Positions 26,174-59,611 of a DNA stretch of 64,000 nucleotides are shown here, piece by piece; positions within the stretch are counted from its first letter, which is position 1, and the number at the start of each line of letters is the position of its first letter. The position numbers were made by a program, and so were the translations under genes. The DNA comes from Allomeiothermus silvanus DSM 9946 (GTDB lineage: Bacteria > Deinococcota > Deinococci > Deinococcales > Thermaceae), in NCBI RefSeq assembly GCF_000092125.1, contig NC_014213.1, positions 186,001 through 250,000 on the forward strand, written 5' to 3'. The notes beneath the pieces were generated by a model, which saw nothing but the letters and a program-made list of their open reading frames with translations, had not been told where the DNA came from and ran no database searches.

Positions 26174-26231
26174 TTGTTCGCGCGAAGGCCGGACAGTATA
26201 ATCCGCAGGCATAACAAGGGGGTGTCGGATG
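26174..26231 (+). promoter_or_regulatory. Original promoter, ribosome binding site and start codon of aapJ, now cut off by an IS
   Basis: TTGTTC (26174-26179), a 17-bp spacer, TATAAT (26197-26202), then AAGGGGG (26216-26222) and ATG at 26229-26231. The ATG opens MRKP, which continues perfectly across the ISAs1-type insertion into the aapJ signal peptide after one 9-bp duplication is removed. The promoter now reads into the IS instead. Confidence 0.7.
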
Positions 26232-26239
26232 CGCAAACC

Positions 26240-27398
26240 CAGGCTTTTATCATAAAGCCATATGAAAACTGCTTCCATTCCCTCTCCGTTGCCATACCTA
26301 GCCCAGATACCCGATCCCCGCGAGTACCTGAAGACCCAGCATCGCTGGCAAGACCTGCTGCTGATCTGCTTGATGGCGGTGGGCTCGGGACGGCACAATA
26401 TCCTGGCCGTCAGCCAGTGGGTGCAAGACCAGCGACGCTTCTTGCTGGACGAGGTCCATATCCGTACCCGCCGGGGTGAGCGCAAACTACCCGGGCAAGC
26501 CACCCTCTACCGCCTCTTTTGGTCCTTGAGCAAGGACCTACAACCCTTGCAAAAGGCCTTACTATCCTGGGCTCGGGAGGTACTCAAGGCCCTGGGCAAG
26601 GAGGGCGATGAACCCTTGCCCGTAGCCGTGGACGGTAAACACCTCCGGGGCACCCGGTGTGCTTGGCGAGGGGAAGAGGCGCTGGTCTTTTTGTCGGCGT
26701 TGGTTCAGGGGCTGGGGCTCTCCTTGGGGAGCCAGGCGATTGCCGACGGTGAGGCAGCGGCGGCGCAGGGACTGGTGGTACACATGGAGGGGCTGGGGGT
26801 GGACTGGGTACTGACGGGGGATGCGGCCTTGTGCACCCAGGAGTTGGCGGCAGTGGTGGTGGAGCAAAAGGGGGGTATCTGTTCAGCGTCAAAGGGAACC
26901 AGGCAGAGCTCAAGGAACTGATCCAGTGGGCCTTTGCCAACTACCAGGCGACCGACCACTACATCCAGCACCAGGTTCGGGGTGGAGAGGTCTGGATATG
27001 GCACCTGGAAGGGCTCCCCCTGCCGGAGGGGGTGAGCGGCTGGCGGGGCTCGCGGATGGCCTTGCGGATGCGACGGCGGGTGGTGCGCAAGAATAGCGGG
27101 GAGCTACGGGAGGAGACCGCCTATGCCCTGACCAGCCTACAGGCCCCGGCCAAGCGGCTGTATGCCCTGTGGCGGGGACACTGGGAGGTAGAGAATCGCT
27201 TACACCATAAACGAGACACGGTGTTGGGAGAAGATGCCTCCCGCAGCCGCAAGGGGGCGGCGGGGCTGATGTACCTACGGGATGTGATCCTGAACCTCCT
27301 GCATCTCAAAAGGTGGCCGGTGTTGCGCTCGGTTAGAAAGTTCTCGGCTGATCCCAAAGTTCTGCTGAGGCTAATCCGAGGGTTGTGATAAAAGCCTG
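26240..27398 (+). mobile_element. ISAs1-family insertion sequence A
   Basis: 1159 bp bounded by perfect 13-bp inverted repeats CAGGCTTTTATCA and flanked by a 9-bp direct repeat GCGCAAACC (26231-26239 and 27399-27407). The first base of that repeat is the G of the aapJ start codon, so the insertion falls within the first codons of aapJ. It carries a transposase in two frames. Confidence 0.93.
26262..27388 (+). CDS. ISAs1-family transposase in two frames joined by a -1 shift
   Basis: Frame 1 (26262-26921) encodes YLAQIPDPREYLKTQHRW, AVSQWVQDQRRFL and the DDE start PVAVDGKHLRGTR, then WVLTGDAALCTQEL. It ends soon after a run of A4G6 (26866-26875). The -1 frame continues without a gap as GYLFSVKGNQAELKELI, RLYALWRGHWEVENRLHHKRD and DVILNLLHLKRW, to 27388. 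A shift back by one base at A-AAG-GGG would give one protein of about 375 residues, the normal family length. The second ISAs1-type element in this window breaks at the homologous place, which argues for programmed frameshifting or transcript slippage rather than decay. Confidence 0.85.
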
Positions 27399-28422
27399 GC
27401 GCAAACCGCTCTTGCTGGTAGCAGTTGTGGCGTATGTGTTGACGGGAATGGGGCTGGCACAACAATCACGGCTCGACGTGGTCAAGGGGCGGGGAAAGCT
27501 GGTCTGCGGCGTCAACGCGCGCCTGCCTGGCTTTGGCTTTCTCGACGAGAAGACGGGAAAGGCAACGGGGTTCGACGTGGACTTCTGCCGCGCGGTGGCG
27601 GCGGCCCTCTTCGATGATCCGGAAAAGGTGGAGTATGTGCCCTTGGACGCTCGGGTTCGCTTTCAAGCCGTACAGAACGGCGAAGTGGACGTGGCTTTCC
27701 GCAACACCACCGTCACCTCCAGCCGGGATGGTGCCGTAGGGGTGGACTTTTTGCCGGTGACCTTCTACGACGGGCAGGGCGTGATGGTGAAGAAGGGCAA
27801 GGCCAGCAGCCTGCGTGAACTCGAGGGCGCCACCTTCTGCACTACGCAGGGGACTACCAACGAGAAGAATATCAGCGATTACATCCGCTCCCGGCGCTGG
27901 CGCAACACCCGACTGCTGACCTTTGAGGATGGCCAGAAGGTGTTTGCCGCTTTGCTGGAAGGGCGCTGCGACGCTTTCACCGCGGACAAGAGCCAACTCG
28001 TCGGCTATCGCGGCACCGCCTCCAATCCCGACGACCTGCTCATCTTGCGCGAGACCATAAGCAAGGAACCGCTCGCTGGCATGGTGCGCGAGAACGACTC
28101 GCGCTGGCGTGACGCCTTGACCTGGATTGTCTATGCCACTATTCAAGCGGAGGAGTTCGGCATAACCGTGAAGAACCTCGACCAGCAGACAAAAAGCGAC
28201 GTACCCGAGGTGCGGCGCTTCTTAGGGCTCGAGGGCACCCTGGGTAAGGATCTGGGCTTGCCCCCCGACTTTGCTGTGAGGATTGTGCGCCATGTGGGCA
28301 ACTACGGTGAGATCTACGACCGGTATTTCGGTCCCAAGAGTGCCTTCGCGATCCCTCGCGCAGGAACGCTGAACGCCTTATATAACAAAGGCGGGCTTCT
28401 CTACAGCCCTCCCTTCCGCTAA
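27385..28422 (+). CDS. aapJ: General L-amino-acid ABC transporter substrate-binding protein
   Basis: 345 residues. The signal peptide (RKPLLLVAVVAYVLTGMGLA) is followed by KLVCGVNARLPGFGF, TGFDVDFCRAVAAALF and AFRNTTVTSSRDG, the AapJ/BztA pattern. Because an ISAs1-type element split the original start, the only start now in frame is a GTG at 27385-27387 inside the IS end, adding four residues (MIKAW replaces the original MR). No good ribosome binding site precedes it; the transposase stop overlaps it, so translational coupling is possible. Captures amino acids outside the membrane for the following permeases. Confidence 0.9.
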   Translation: MIKAWRKPLLLVAVVAYVLTGMGLAQQSRLDVVKGRGKLVCGVNARLPGFGFLDEKTGKATGFDVDFCRAVAAALFDDPEKVEYVPLDARVRFQAVQNGEVDVAFRNTTVTSSRDGAVGVDFLPVTFYDGQGVMVKKGKASSLRELEGATFCTTQGTTNEKNISDYIRSRRWRNTRLLTFEDGQKVFAALLEGRCDAFTADKSQLVGYRGTASNPDDLLILRETISKEPLAGMVRENDSRWRDALTWIVYATIQAEEFGITVKNLDQQTKSDVPEVRRFLGLEGTLGKDLGLPPDFAVRIVRHVGNYGEIYDRYFGPKSAFAIPRAGTLNALYNKGGLLYSPPFR

Positions 28423-31674: not shown

Positions 31675-32766
31675 TAGGAGTTACGCAGTTGCAGTTGACT
31701 GGACATTCTTCTGTGTGCTAGGAGGAGAGTGCTTAGCCAAGCTTCTCCAAAGGGGGTGATGCCCATGAACCCACCGAAGTGCGATGACCTGGACTACATC
31801 CACTTTCTCATCGCCGCTCAGCGGGTCTTCACCTGTACCGAGGCCGCTCGCTGTAGTCCAAAGGAGAAGAGCCCTCCCGCCCATGATGCCTTTACCCGCC
31901 TGCTGCAAAGACAGCCGCCCGACACGGCGGCGCTGTGGCAGGAGGCCAAGGCCTTCGTGAAGCTCAGGGAGGGGCTGCTGATCCTGGACGACACCACCCT
32001 GGATAAGCCCTACGCTCGGGACATGGATCTGGTGAGTTACCACTGGAGCGGCAAACACCAAAGGGTGGTTAGGGGCATCGCCCTCATGACCCTGCTGTGG
32101 ACGGAGGGGCAGGCCCTGATCCCCTGCGACTTTCGGGTCTACGACAAGCCCCAGGATGGGAAGAGCAAAAACGACCACTTTCAGACCATGCTCCAGAAAG
32201 CGAAGGAGCGGGGGTTTCAGCCGGAATATGTCCTGATGGACAGCTGGTATGCCAGCTTGGAGAACCTCAAGGCCATAGTCAGCTTTGGCTGGCGGTTTCT
32301 GACGCGGCTGAAGGGCAACCGCCTGGTCAACCCGGAGGGGAAGGGAAATGTACCCATCCGTGAGGTGGAAATCCCTGGGGAGGGGAGGGTGGTTCATCTT
32401 CGGGGTTTTGGGTTCGTGAGGGTGTTCCGAACGCTCTCCAAGGACGGGGAGGCGGAGTACTGGGCCACGAACCATCTGGGGATGAGCGAAGAGAAGCGGG
32501 CGGAGTTAGAGCGGCAAGGATGGGGGATCGAAGTGTACCATCGGGGGCTCAAGCAGTGCTGTGGGGTGGAGCGGGCCCAGGTGAGGAAGGCGGTCTCCAT
32601 CCTGCGGCACCTCCTCCTGGCTTTGCGGGCCTTCCTCCGGCTGGAGGTCTACCGGCTGCGCAGGGGGGTGAGCTGGTACGAGGCCAAGGCGTCCATTGTT
32701 CGCGAGGCAATACGAAGTTATCTCGCCCATCCCCTCCACATCCTTCAGCCAACTGCGTAAGTCCTA
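31675..32766 (+). mobile_element. IS701-like insertion sequence, copy A
   Basis: 1092 bp, identical in length to the copy at 45873-46964 and in opposite orientation. Ends are imperfect inverted repeats, GGAGTTACGCAGTTG on the left and GGACTTACGCAGTTG on the right, within flanking TA dinucleotides. No longer target duplication is evident. It ends eight bases before the cobD start codon. Confidence 0.85.
31765..32760 (+). CDS. IS701-like DDE transposase (copy A)
   Basis: 331 residues from the ATG at 31765, which has AAGGGGG eight bases upstream; longer in-frame starts exist from 31729. DDE features: LLILDDTTLDKPYARDMDLV with the first Asp, VSYHWSGKHQRVVRGIAL, YVLMDSWYASLENLKAI with the second Asp, FLTRLKGNR, and a C-terminal GIEVYHRGLKQCCGVERAQ with the Glu. 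The IS family name is from motif memory; no search was possible. Confidence 0.85.
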   Translation: MNPPKCDDLDYIHFLIAAQRVFTCTEAARCSPKEKSPPAHDAFTRLLQRQPPDTAALWQEAKAFVKLREGLLILDDTTLDKPYARDMDLVSYHWSGKHQRVVRGIALMTLLWTEGQALIPCDFRVYDKPQDGKSKNDHFQTMLQKAKERGFQPEYVLMDSWYASLENLKAIVSFGWRFLTRLKGNRLVNPEGKGNVPIREVEIPGEGRVVHLRGFGFVRVFRTLSKDGEAEYWATNHLGMSEEKRAELERQGWGIEVYHRGLKQCCGVERAQVRKAVSILRHLLLALRAFLRLEVYRLRRGVSWYEAKASIVREAIRSYLAHPLHILQPTA

Positions 32767-38023: not shown

Positions 38024-38092
38024 CGGCGGCTCCTTACCTAGAGGGTATCCCAAAACGCACCCCGCGGCTGTTCATGAGCGGACCCTCGAGGG

Positions 38093-39236
38093 CAGACTTG
38101 ACCGCTATGCCGCATAGAGCCCCAGGAAGCGCAGGGCGGAGAGGGGGTTGAAGGAGAAGATTTCTAGGGCTGCCTTCTTCTCCCTCACCCCCTCTCGGTG
38201 AAGCATGGAGACCAGGAAGGCCCGCAGCACCGCTAGCACCCACGCCCCCACCCCCCGCACCTGACAGGCATCCTCCCCAAAGCACACGTCCCGCACCCAA
38301 AACGATCGGTTCTCCACCTCCCATCGGGAAAGCAACAGGCTCCCCAGCCGCTTTGCGTCCGCTACCTCCGGCCCCAGGCTGGTGAGGGCGTAGCTCACCG
38401 TCCGCCGCACCTCCCCCGTCCCCTTGTGCCTCACCTCCCGCCAAAGCCGCACCACCTGCCTGGCCCCAGGGAAGGCCCGCACCTCTTCCGGCAGGTAGGG
38501 GGAAGCCCAAACCCGGTAGGTCCACACCTCCCCGTCCCGCACCCCACTCCAGGTCGCCTCCGTCTCCCCGGGAAGACGCCTTCCCGCCATCCCCTTGAAC
38601 ACCTCCAGGGCCCAGGACAAAAGCTCCTCCTGGTTCCCCTTCAGGACCAAGAGATAGTCCCCCCTTTTTTCCGCACCCGGGCCGCCACCTCAGGGTACAG
38701 GTACCCCGCGTCCCCCACCACCACCTTGCCCTCCAGCTCCCTCGCTTCCAAACGGTCCAGAAGCTCCAGGAAGGCCTTCTCCTCCCTCCCTTCCGCCCGG
38801 GCCTGGGCCAGGGTGGTATGGAGGTGCAGGGCCAGGACCTCCACCAGCTTGACCTGGGGGCTTTTCCCCTTGCCGCTTCCCCGCAGGTGCTTCCCGTCCA
38901 CCACCAGGACCTCCCCAAGGTCGGCTTCGGGGAAGACCTGGCCAAGGGCCGCCTGGAGCTTCTCAGGATCCAGGCGGTGAAGGAGAAGGGTGATGGCGGT
39001 GTGGCCTGGGGCCTTGCGCAGGCCCAGGTGGGGCAAGAGGTGGGGGTTGGCGCGGGCAAAGCGTTCCACGCCGCGCAGGGAGTCCACGCGGCTCAGGAAG
39101 GCCACCAGGATGAGGGCCAGAAGGCCCCACAGGGGGTACCGCCGGTTGTGGGCCCGGGGGTCCGGGACCTGAGATAGCGCCTGGCGCAGAGTCATGATCT
39201 TTCTCTACCCCAAGGGCTGTATATCGGTCAAGTCTG
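38093..39236 (-). mobile_element. ISAs1-family insertion sequence B
   Basis: 1144 bp with perfect 12-bp inverted repeats CAGACTTGACCG and a 10-bp target duplication CCCTCGAGGG (38083-38092 and 39237-39246) that is itself a palindrome. Different in sequence from element A, but like it the ends start with CAG. It fell between the divergent AhpD-like and HD-GYP genes. Confidence 0.93.
38105..39195 (-). CDS. ISAs1-family transposase in two frames joined by a -1 shift
   Basis: Frame 1 (39195 to 38641 on the complement) encodes LSQVPDPRAHNRRYPLWGLL, APGHTAITLLLHRLDPE, LVVDGKHLRGSGKGK and VVVGDAGYLYPEVAARVRKKG. At a run of A6G6 (38670-38659) the -1 frame takes over: DYLLVLKGNQEELLSWA, RRTVSYALTSLGPE, LLLSRWEVENRSFWVRD. 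Joined, they make about 363 residues, normal for the family. The break lies at the same protein position (KKGG before xYL) as in the other element although the two proteins differ widely. Confidence 0.85.
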
Positions 39237-39282
39237 CCCTCGAGGGCTGGAAGTGGTCTATAGTGGTGGGATAAGGGGTAAG

Positions 39283-58982: not shown

Positions 58983-59330
58983 ATGGTAAAGAGCCGCTTA
59001 AGCAGTAAAGGCCAGATCACCCTTCCCAAGCCGGTGCGGGAGGCCTTGGGTCTTGCCCCCGGAGAGGAGGTGGTCTTTGAGCTGCGGCAAGGCGAGGCCG
59101 TGCTCCGTCCCCGCCGCCAGGTTCCCCTGGAGGCCCTTTTGGGGCGACTGGGCGGCAAATCGGCCTTTCCGGGGGAAGAGGAGGAGGGTCGGGCGCGGGA
59201 GGCGGCATGGGTTCGGGAGAGGGGTTGGATACCAGCCTGCTCCTGCGCTTCATCACCGGAAAGCCGGAGGAGCTTGCGGGGAAGGCCCTTCTGGTGTTCC
59301 GGGGGGCCGAGGAGCGTCGCTTCCTCCTGA
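58983..59330 (+). CDS. vapB: AbrB/MazE-type antitoxin, probable VapB, with extended tail
   Basis: The first about 50 residues are an AbrB swapped-hairpin domain: RLSSKGQITLPKPVREALGL and EVVFELRQGEAVLRPR. GAGGAG precedes the ATG. A usual VapB of this type ends near residue 80; this frame runs on to 115 and overlaps the toxin gene by 124 bases in another frame. Either the stop was lost or there is a small shift. Binds its operator and the PIN toxin. Confidence 0.7.
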   Translation: MVKSRLSSKGQITLPKPVREALGLAPGEEVVFELRQGEAVLRPRRQVPLEALLGRLGGKSAFPGEEEEGRAREAAWVRERGWIPACSCASSPESRRSLRGRPFWCSGGPRSVASS

Positions 59331-59611
59331 GGGTCCACCCTTTGGTGGTGGCCGAGGCCTTCTACACCCTCGTCTCCTTCTACAAGGCCAAAAAGGGGGA
59401 AGCGGCGGAAACCCTCCTAGCCCTCCTGGACCGGCCCGGGGTGGAGGTCCTGGAGGGGGACGCAGTGTTCCCGGCTCTCCGGGAGGCGGGCAGGGGAGGC
59501 CTGAGCCTCGTGGACGCCTTTCTGCTCTTCCGATGCGGGGAGAGGGATGAGGGGGTGGCCACCCTGGATGCCCGGCTACGGAAGAGGGTGGGGGAAGGGA
59601 TTATCCCCTGA
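59207..59611 (+). CDS. vapC: PIN-domain ribonuclease toxin, probable VapC
   Basis: 134 residues. First acidic residue in GLDTSLLLRFITG (Asp8), conserved Glu in HPLVVAEAFYTL, then LSLVDAFLLFRCGE and VATLDARLRKR with the later Asp residues. ATG lies inside the antitoxin frame. Likely cleaves RNA when the antitoxin is lost. Confidence 0.75.
   Translation: MGSGEGLDTSLLLRFITGKPEELAGKALLVFRGAEERRFLLRVHPLVVAEAFYTLVSFYKAKKGEAAETLLALLDRPGVEVLEGDAVFPALREAGRGGLSLVDAFLLFRCGERDEGVATLDARLRKRVGEGIIP

Follow-up and report, generated by a model that had tools for sequence, protein, structure and literature searches.

Putative programmed -1 recoding of ISAs1-family transposases at a shared A/G run in Allomeiothermus silvanus and its relatives

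Two insertion sequences (IS) of the ISAs1 family, termed A and B, lie within the 64,000-nucleotide stretch of the Allomeiothermus silvanus DSM 9946 genome that was analysed (the window), and in both the transposase gene is split by a -1 frame change at a run of A followed by G. The split very likely reflects programmed recoding, either by the polymerase or by the ribosome. The more specific reading, drawn from comparison of sequences, is that A and B are functional elements whose full transposase would arise only through -1 recoding, probably by slippage of RNA polymerase.

Element A is 1159 bp long (26240-27398, plus strand). It is bounded by perfect 13-bp terminal inverted repeats, CAGGCTTTTATCA on the left (26240-26252, plus strand) and TGATAAAAGCCTG on the right (27386-27398, minus strand), outside of which are the two copies of the target-site duplication gcgcaaacc (26231-26239 and 27399-27407). 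The frame-0 open reading frame (ORF; 26262-26921, plus strand) encodes 219 aa with the PF13808 domain and the catalytic residues Asp124 (codon 26631-26633) and Asp187 (codon 26820-26822), and the -1-frame half past the run (26876-27388, plus strand) carries the catalytic Glu311 at 27191-27193. In the region 26226-27410, the element lies 11 nt past the start codon (ATG) of a gene for an amino-acid-binding protein (PF00497), where the IS end provides a GTG at 27385 with the frame kept, giving MIKAWRKPLLL in place of MRKPLLL.

Element B is 1144 bp long and lies on the minus strand (38093-39236). Its perfect 12-bp terminal inverted repeats are CAGACTTGACCG on the left (39225-39236, minus strand) and, on the right (38093-38104, plus strand), a repeat that reads CGGTCAAGTCTG on the minus strand. 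The flanking target-site duplication is ccctcgaggg (39237-39246 and 38083-38092). The frame-0 ORF (38641-39195, minus strand) encodes 184 aa with the PF13808 domain and two catalytic Asp residues, and the -1-frame half (38105-38658, minus strand) contains the catalytic Glu within the motif WEVEN.

The assignment of both transposases to the ISAs1 type, first made by a sequence-only reading of the window, is borne out by the fused proteins of 375 aa (A) and 363 aa (B). They score 130.4 and 124.7 bits against NF033564 (transpos_ISAs1, an NCBIfam equivalog), which has a curated cut-off of 70 bits, and both contain PF13808 and PF01609. An alignment that includes B and, as outgroup, four ISAs1 proteins of other phyla shows Asp124, Asp187, and Glu311 of A to be invariant. 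A and B further resemble the ISAs1 family in their length of ~1.1-1.2 kb, short inverted repeats, and duplications of 9-10 bp. A single transposase ORF, a usual feature of ISAs1 rather than part of the family definition, is absent from both: ISAs1 elements of other phyla mostly have one unbroken frame, whereas in A and B the frame changes by -1 within the DDE domain. The window holds another DDE transposase ORF (31729-32760; PF01609/DDE_5), which encodes 343 aa in one unbroken frame.

The runs lie exactly where they had been placed, A4G6 at 26866-26875 (plus strand) in A and A6G6 at 38659-38670 (minus strand) in B. Past the run the transposase goes on in the -1 frame in both elements, and the required shift falls at the same alignment position, just past K-G-G. 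The shared context proposed earlier, KGG before xYL, fits B (KGGDYLL) but not A, which reads KGG-YLF and is one residue shorter there. Frame 0 meets a stop 14 codons past the run in A and 5 codons past it in B. The run is located past the second catalytic Asp and ahead of the catalytic Glu, inside the catalytic domain, so that a complete active site is impossible in frame 0 alone. A protein made from frame 0 alone would end before the Glu, although it would include the N-terminal domain and both catalytic Asp residues; it is expected to be catalytically dead and may serve as an inhibitor.

The codon phase of the run differs between the elements, being CAA AAG GGG GGT in A and AAA AAA GGG GGG ACT in B. 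The slippery heptamer A_AAG_GGG that had been suggested for both is consequently found only in A, and B has no in-phase X_XXY_YYZ heptamer at all. Elsewhere in the window, an unbroken ORF of 134 aa (59207-59611) contains an A5G5 run (59390-59399) with A_AAG_GGG in phase, which means that the motif alone is not diagnostic of a split gene; this site is either a control for the motif or a low-level recoding site.

Both elements have moved recently as split elements. The host genome searched (3,721,669 bases) has three contigs, of which two measure 3,249,394 and 347,854 bases. The six copies of A are identical and each is flanked by target duplications of 9-10 bp; the 20 near-identical full copies of B comprise three sequence variants, distinguished by two positions, and exact duplications of 9-10 bp flank 19 of these copies (25 of 26 for A and B together). 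The run is present in all 6 copies of A and all 20 full copies of B, and every one carries the split. The only B copy without matching duplications (G000:C1:1024287-1025433) was possibly produced by recombination between B copies. An additional B copy with 96% identity (G000:C1:2960277-2961466) has a length difference of ~45 bp, with the A/G run and truncated frames still present. Across the genome AAAAGGGGGG occurs 35 times, against 10 for a reversed control, and 27 of the 35 occurrences are within copies of A or B. On the small plasmid, two inverted AAAAGGGGGG runs lie 11 bases apart (G000:C3:30190-30220).

A survey of ISAs1 elements in Thermus and Meiothermus had been proposed as a check on the split, and it found the -1 relation in 31 distinct elements. 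These are near-full-length elements with the -1 relation at the A/G run, one of them with an interrupted run; the same count includes, besides the 31, one element that is in frame (G7), one decayed by an extra indel, and one (L121) with the split and a second indel. The split occurs in Meiothermus, in Thermus, in a fifth genus of the Thermaceae, and in a single genome assigned to another family. The composition of the run ranges over A2-6/G5-7. Relatives of B have A6G6 in Meiothermus sp. KatS3mg071 and M. taiwanensis; A5G6 in T. parvatiensis, Thermus sp. 2.9, T. scotoductus, T. composti, T. oshimai, and T. thermophilus; and A2G7 in M. taiwanensis WR-220 and its relatives. The B relative of T. 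caliditerrae has A4G6 with further stops and has probably decayed. Relatives of A have A4G6, A4G5, or A6G5, the last in the genome of another family of the same order. In a plasmid collection, near-complete Thermaceae matches fall in two or three pieces, the exceptions being the G7 copies and, likewise, one partial match; ISAs1 elements of other organisms in that collection are nearly all single-piece among the matches listed.

Five elements that appeared as single tblastn hits (L060, L107, L121, L123, and L127) were considered as single-frame relatives and rejected, being in fact deletion derivatives that are shorter than full elements or have a second indel restoring the frame; L121 has the same split with a frame-restoring indel downstream. 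The nearest in-frame relative without the run reads AAA GGT GGG and sits inside the A clade, at an open fork of the tree. The shared position in the two elements, from which the sequence-only reading had argued that independent decay was unlikely, is confirmed. However, A and B are sister clades in the tree, so their splits may share one origin; the tree is compatible with one or two origins of the split.

Purifying selection acts on both halves of the transposase. Between split elements, dN/dS (Nei-Gojobori) is 0.07-0.52 ahead of the run and 0.10-0.41 past it, with dS reaching above 1 among the pairs. The low values past the run indicate that the -1-frame half has long been selected as protein while the split was present. 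The codons that make up the run are also unusual in B-type elements. At the run, Lys is encoded by AAA in 7 of 8 elements, although AAA accounts for 11% of Lys codons in the rest of these elements. A Gln or Glu precedes it in six elements and uses CAA or GAA every time, versus 22-26% elsewhere. These counts, like that for the A-type elements given below, come from related elements and are not independent trials. Mobile copies that are all split, a genome in which no single-frame copy was found, conservation of the split in 31 elements, and selection on both halves together make programmed recoding the best reading, in agreement with what had been suspected from the window.

In the polymerase route, slippage would take place at an A-then-G run of ~10 nt lying within the RNA:DNA hybrid. 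The RNA would realign one base backwards, with a single rG:dT wobble as the only mismatch, and the mRNA would gain one extra G; ordinary translation of this mRNA would yield the fused transposase of 375 or 363 aa. The hybrid of T. thermophilus RNA polymerase is 9-10 bp (PMC5009743), and the run is 9-12 nt long among the elements tabulated by codon phase, with the exception of one interrupted copy. Thus, the run is close in length to the hybrid, and the wobble available to A followed by G allows the direction that is required, an addition. The precedent is an IS630 element of Roseiflexus that slips on T5C5, where the direction is set by the only wobble pair tolerated (PMC5009743). Since rG:dT is tolerated, an A-then-G order allows addition of one base, as every split element requires. 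Such slippage may limit transposition; the sequence-only reading had suggested that recoding could limit transposase output, as in IS3.

Programmed -1 ribosomal frameshifting of the kind used by IS1 and IS3 elements, in which the tRNAs decoding AAG and GGG would shift together into the -1 frame on A_AAG_GGG and the mRNA is unaltered, is the less likely of the two kinds of recoding, though a serious candidate in one lineage. The site is always (C/A)AA AAG GGG in A-type elements, all seven of which keep the heptamer in phase despite synonymous sites near saturation between several members, and A_AA.G_GG.G belongs to the heptamers at which -1 slippage is efficient in E. coli (PMC4066793). The ribosome would thus be sufficient in the A lineage, where its slippage could be an alternative or an addition to that of the polymerase. 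Most of the recoding known in IS elements is ribosomal (PMC5009743). However, B-lineage sites read AAA GGG GGG N, and re-pairing of both tRNAs there would leave the first position of the A-site codon mismatched; an in-phase heptamer (G_GGG_GGG) is found in only one member of that lineage, L106. The remaining option at B sites, a single G_GGG slip, gives no real frameshifting in E. coli (PMC4066793). Furthermore, there is no conserved 3' structure, the 60-nt downstream windows being at the 13th-90th folding-energy percentile of the element. The phase of the B run, which lacks a heptamer, favours the polymerase route.

Further support for polymerase slippage comes from a different group of Thermus elements. 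Among ISTth7-type elements (L237-L266), T3C7 runs need a +1 shift and C6-8T3-4 runs mostly need -1, directions that for the most part match the single-wobble rule. One ISTth7 relative with C5T4 (L261) has the opposite direction, counter to the rule, and may be decayed; another ISTth7-type element (L241) has an interrupted run. A stimulatory hairpin, sought on the 5' and 3' sides of the run, was not found as a shared feature. Directly before the run, a hairpin ranks in the most stable 0.6% of windows in L106 (A2G7) and 0.2% in L082 (A4G6), both B-type; at the same position it is moderate in B (near 3%) and absent in the A lineage. In the copy with the interrupted run (L105), hairpin strength and run are both lost. 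A broader and more tentative proposal is that Thermaceae RNA polymerase could add one G at A(n)G(m) as a lineage-wide counterpart of paramyxovirus editing, and that at least two IS families in these genomes might exploit runs whose base order (A then G, T then C, or C then T) sets the direction by the single-wobble rule.

Relatives with a single frame at the run had been named in advance as evidence against recoding. Such relatives do exist, but the only case is a G7 allele of T. thermophilus, carried by strains TF21 and TF28 (L179 and L274), whereas TF24 and TF27 (L275 and L180) have G6 at the same insertion. The G7 copies form one open frame of 363 codons, and the flanks of TF21 and TF27 are 99.9% identical. 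G7 is either a natural in-frame variant or a run length polymorphism, and could also be a sequencing error. This locus, with both states in four strains, is what would be expected of phase variation, in which replication slippage toggles the run between G6 (off) and G7 (on) and transposition occurs only in G7 cells. Phase variation is nevertheless improbable as the general explanation: both phases would then be expected, yet all 26 full copies in the host genome and the 31 elements elsewhere are in the off state. In addition, the A length and the codon phase vary among runs while the -1 relation is kept, and the G7 that suggests toggling could also be an error of sequencing.

It is very improbable that the elements are simply broken, moved in trans by a helper transposase, and alike through inherited decay. 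The two halves do form separate ORFs, and some copies are degenerate (L007, L121). However, a single-frame ISAs1 transposase was not found in the host genome, either by a PF13808 profile search or with the fused A protein as query: the PF13808 model hits 27 places, all of them A or B with open frames of 221 or 187 residues, and the fused A query matches only A, B, and degenerate remnants. Thus, no such helper was found that could have moved the copies. Purifying selection on both halves, and retention of the run while the remaining sequence diverges, also speak against decay. Most Thermus records are annotated with two ORFs, and one transposase might be assembled from two proteins, the downstream one translated from its own internal start; this is hardly credible. 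The internal start is not conserved, the TTG that directly follows the run in B being replaced by TTT in T. parvatiensis; the division lies within the catalytic domain; and internal starts have no need of an A/G run. Although homopolymers are a common site of assembly or sequencing error, that explanation is negligible, because all 26 copies agree, as do independent genomes including that of T. parvatiensis sequenced by PacBio (PMC5529391), and error has already been refuted for the general pattern.

Several known systems resemble recoding at the A/G run. The Roseiflexus IS630 element shares a two-base run of ~10 nt, an IS transposase, and a single wobble that sets direction (PMC5009743), but one C is deleted there and a 5' stem-loop is required, whereas a base would be added at the A/G run, where a hairpin is present in some elements only. 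Editing of the paramyxovirus P gene likewise uses an A-then-G run, one extra G in the mRNA, and a -1 frame (PMC5009743); the polymerase is a viral RNA-dependent one, in contrast to the bacterial DNA-dependent polymerase proposed for A and B. Polymerase slippage is also productive in dnaX of T. thermophilus, a member of the same bacterial family (PMC5009743, PMC1088944), though on a pure A9 run with variable and multiple insertions. In the frameshifting elements of IS1, IS3, IS5, and IS630, as here, only the frame-fused product is the full transposase and the shift may limit output, but their usual motifs are A-rich heptamers. The ISTth7 element belongs to the same genus as many of the split relatives, Thermus, and has a transposase split at a homopolymer-rich run; in a Thermus mobilome survey, its two-ORF copies are regarded as active (PMC6352166). 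It differs in family (IS5), in its T3C7 run, and in its +1 shift.

The frameshifting families named in a 2016 review are IS1, IS3, IS5, and IS630, and ISAs1 is not among these (PMC5009743); the Thermus mobilome survey makes no mention of ISAs1 (PMC6352166). The GeneTack database has large -1 and +1 clusters of DDE_Tnp_1 (PMC3711429), which may or may not include the present elements. A literature search found no report of recoding in ISAs1 or at an A/G run there, and no bacterial example of an A-then-G recoding motif was found in the literature examined. The kind of phenomenon is known, then; its occurrence in ISAs1, its A/G motif, and its spread across a whole lineage appear to be new.

Programmed recoding would thereby be extended to ISAs1, a family not listed as frameshifting in the literature examined. 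The natural series of run lengths and codon phases separates the polymerase (B-type, without a heptamer) from the ribosome (A-type, with a heptamer), and the natural G6/G7 pair of T. thermophilus could be a ready genetic test. For the Thermaceae more widely, many of the ORFs annotated as "broken" or "hypothetical" in Thermus and Meiothermus are probably functional transposases.
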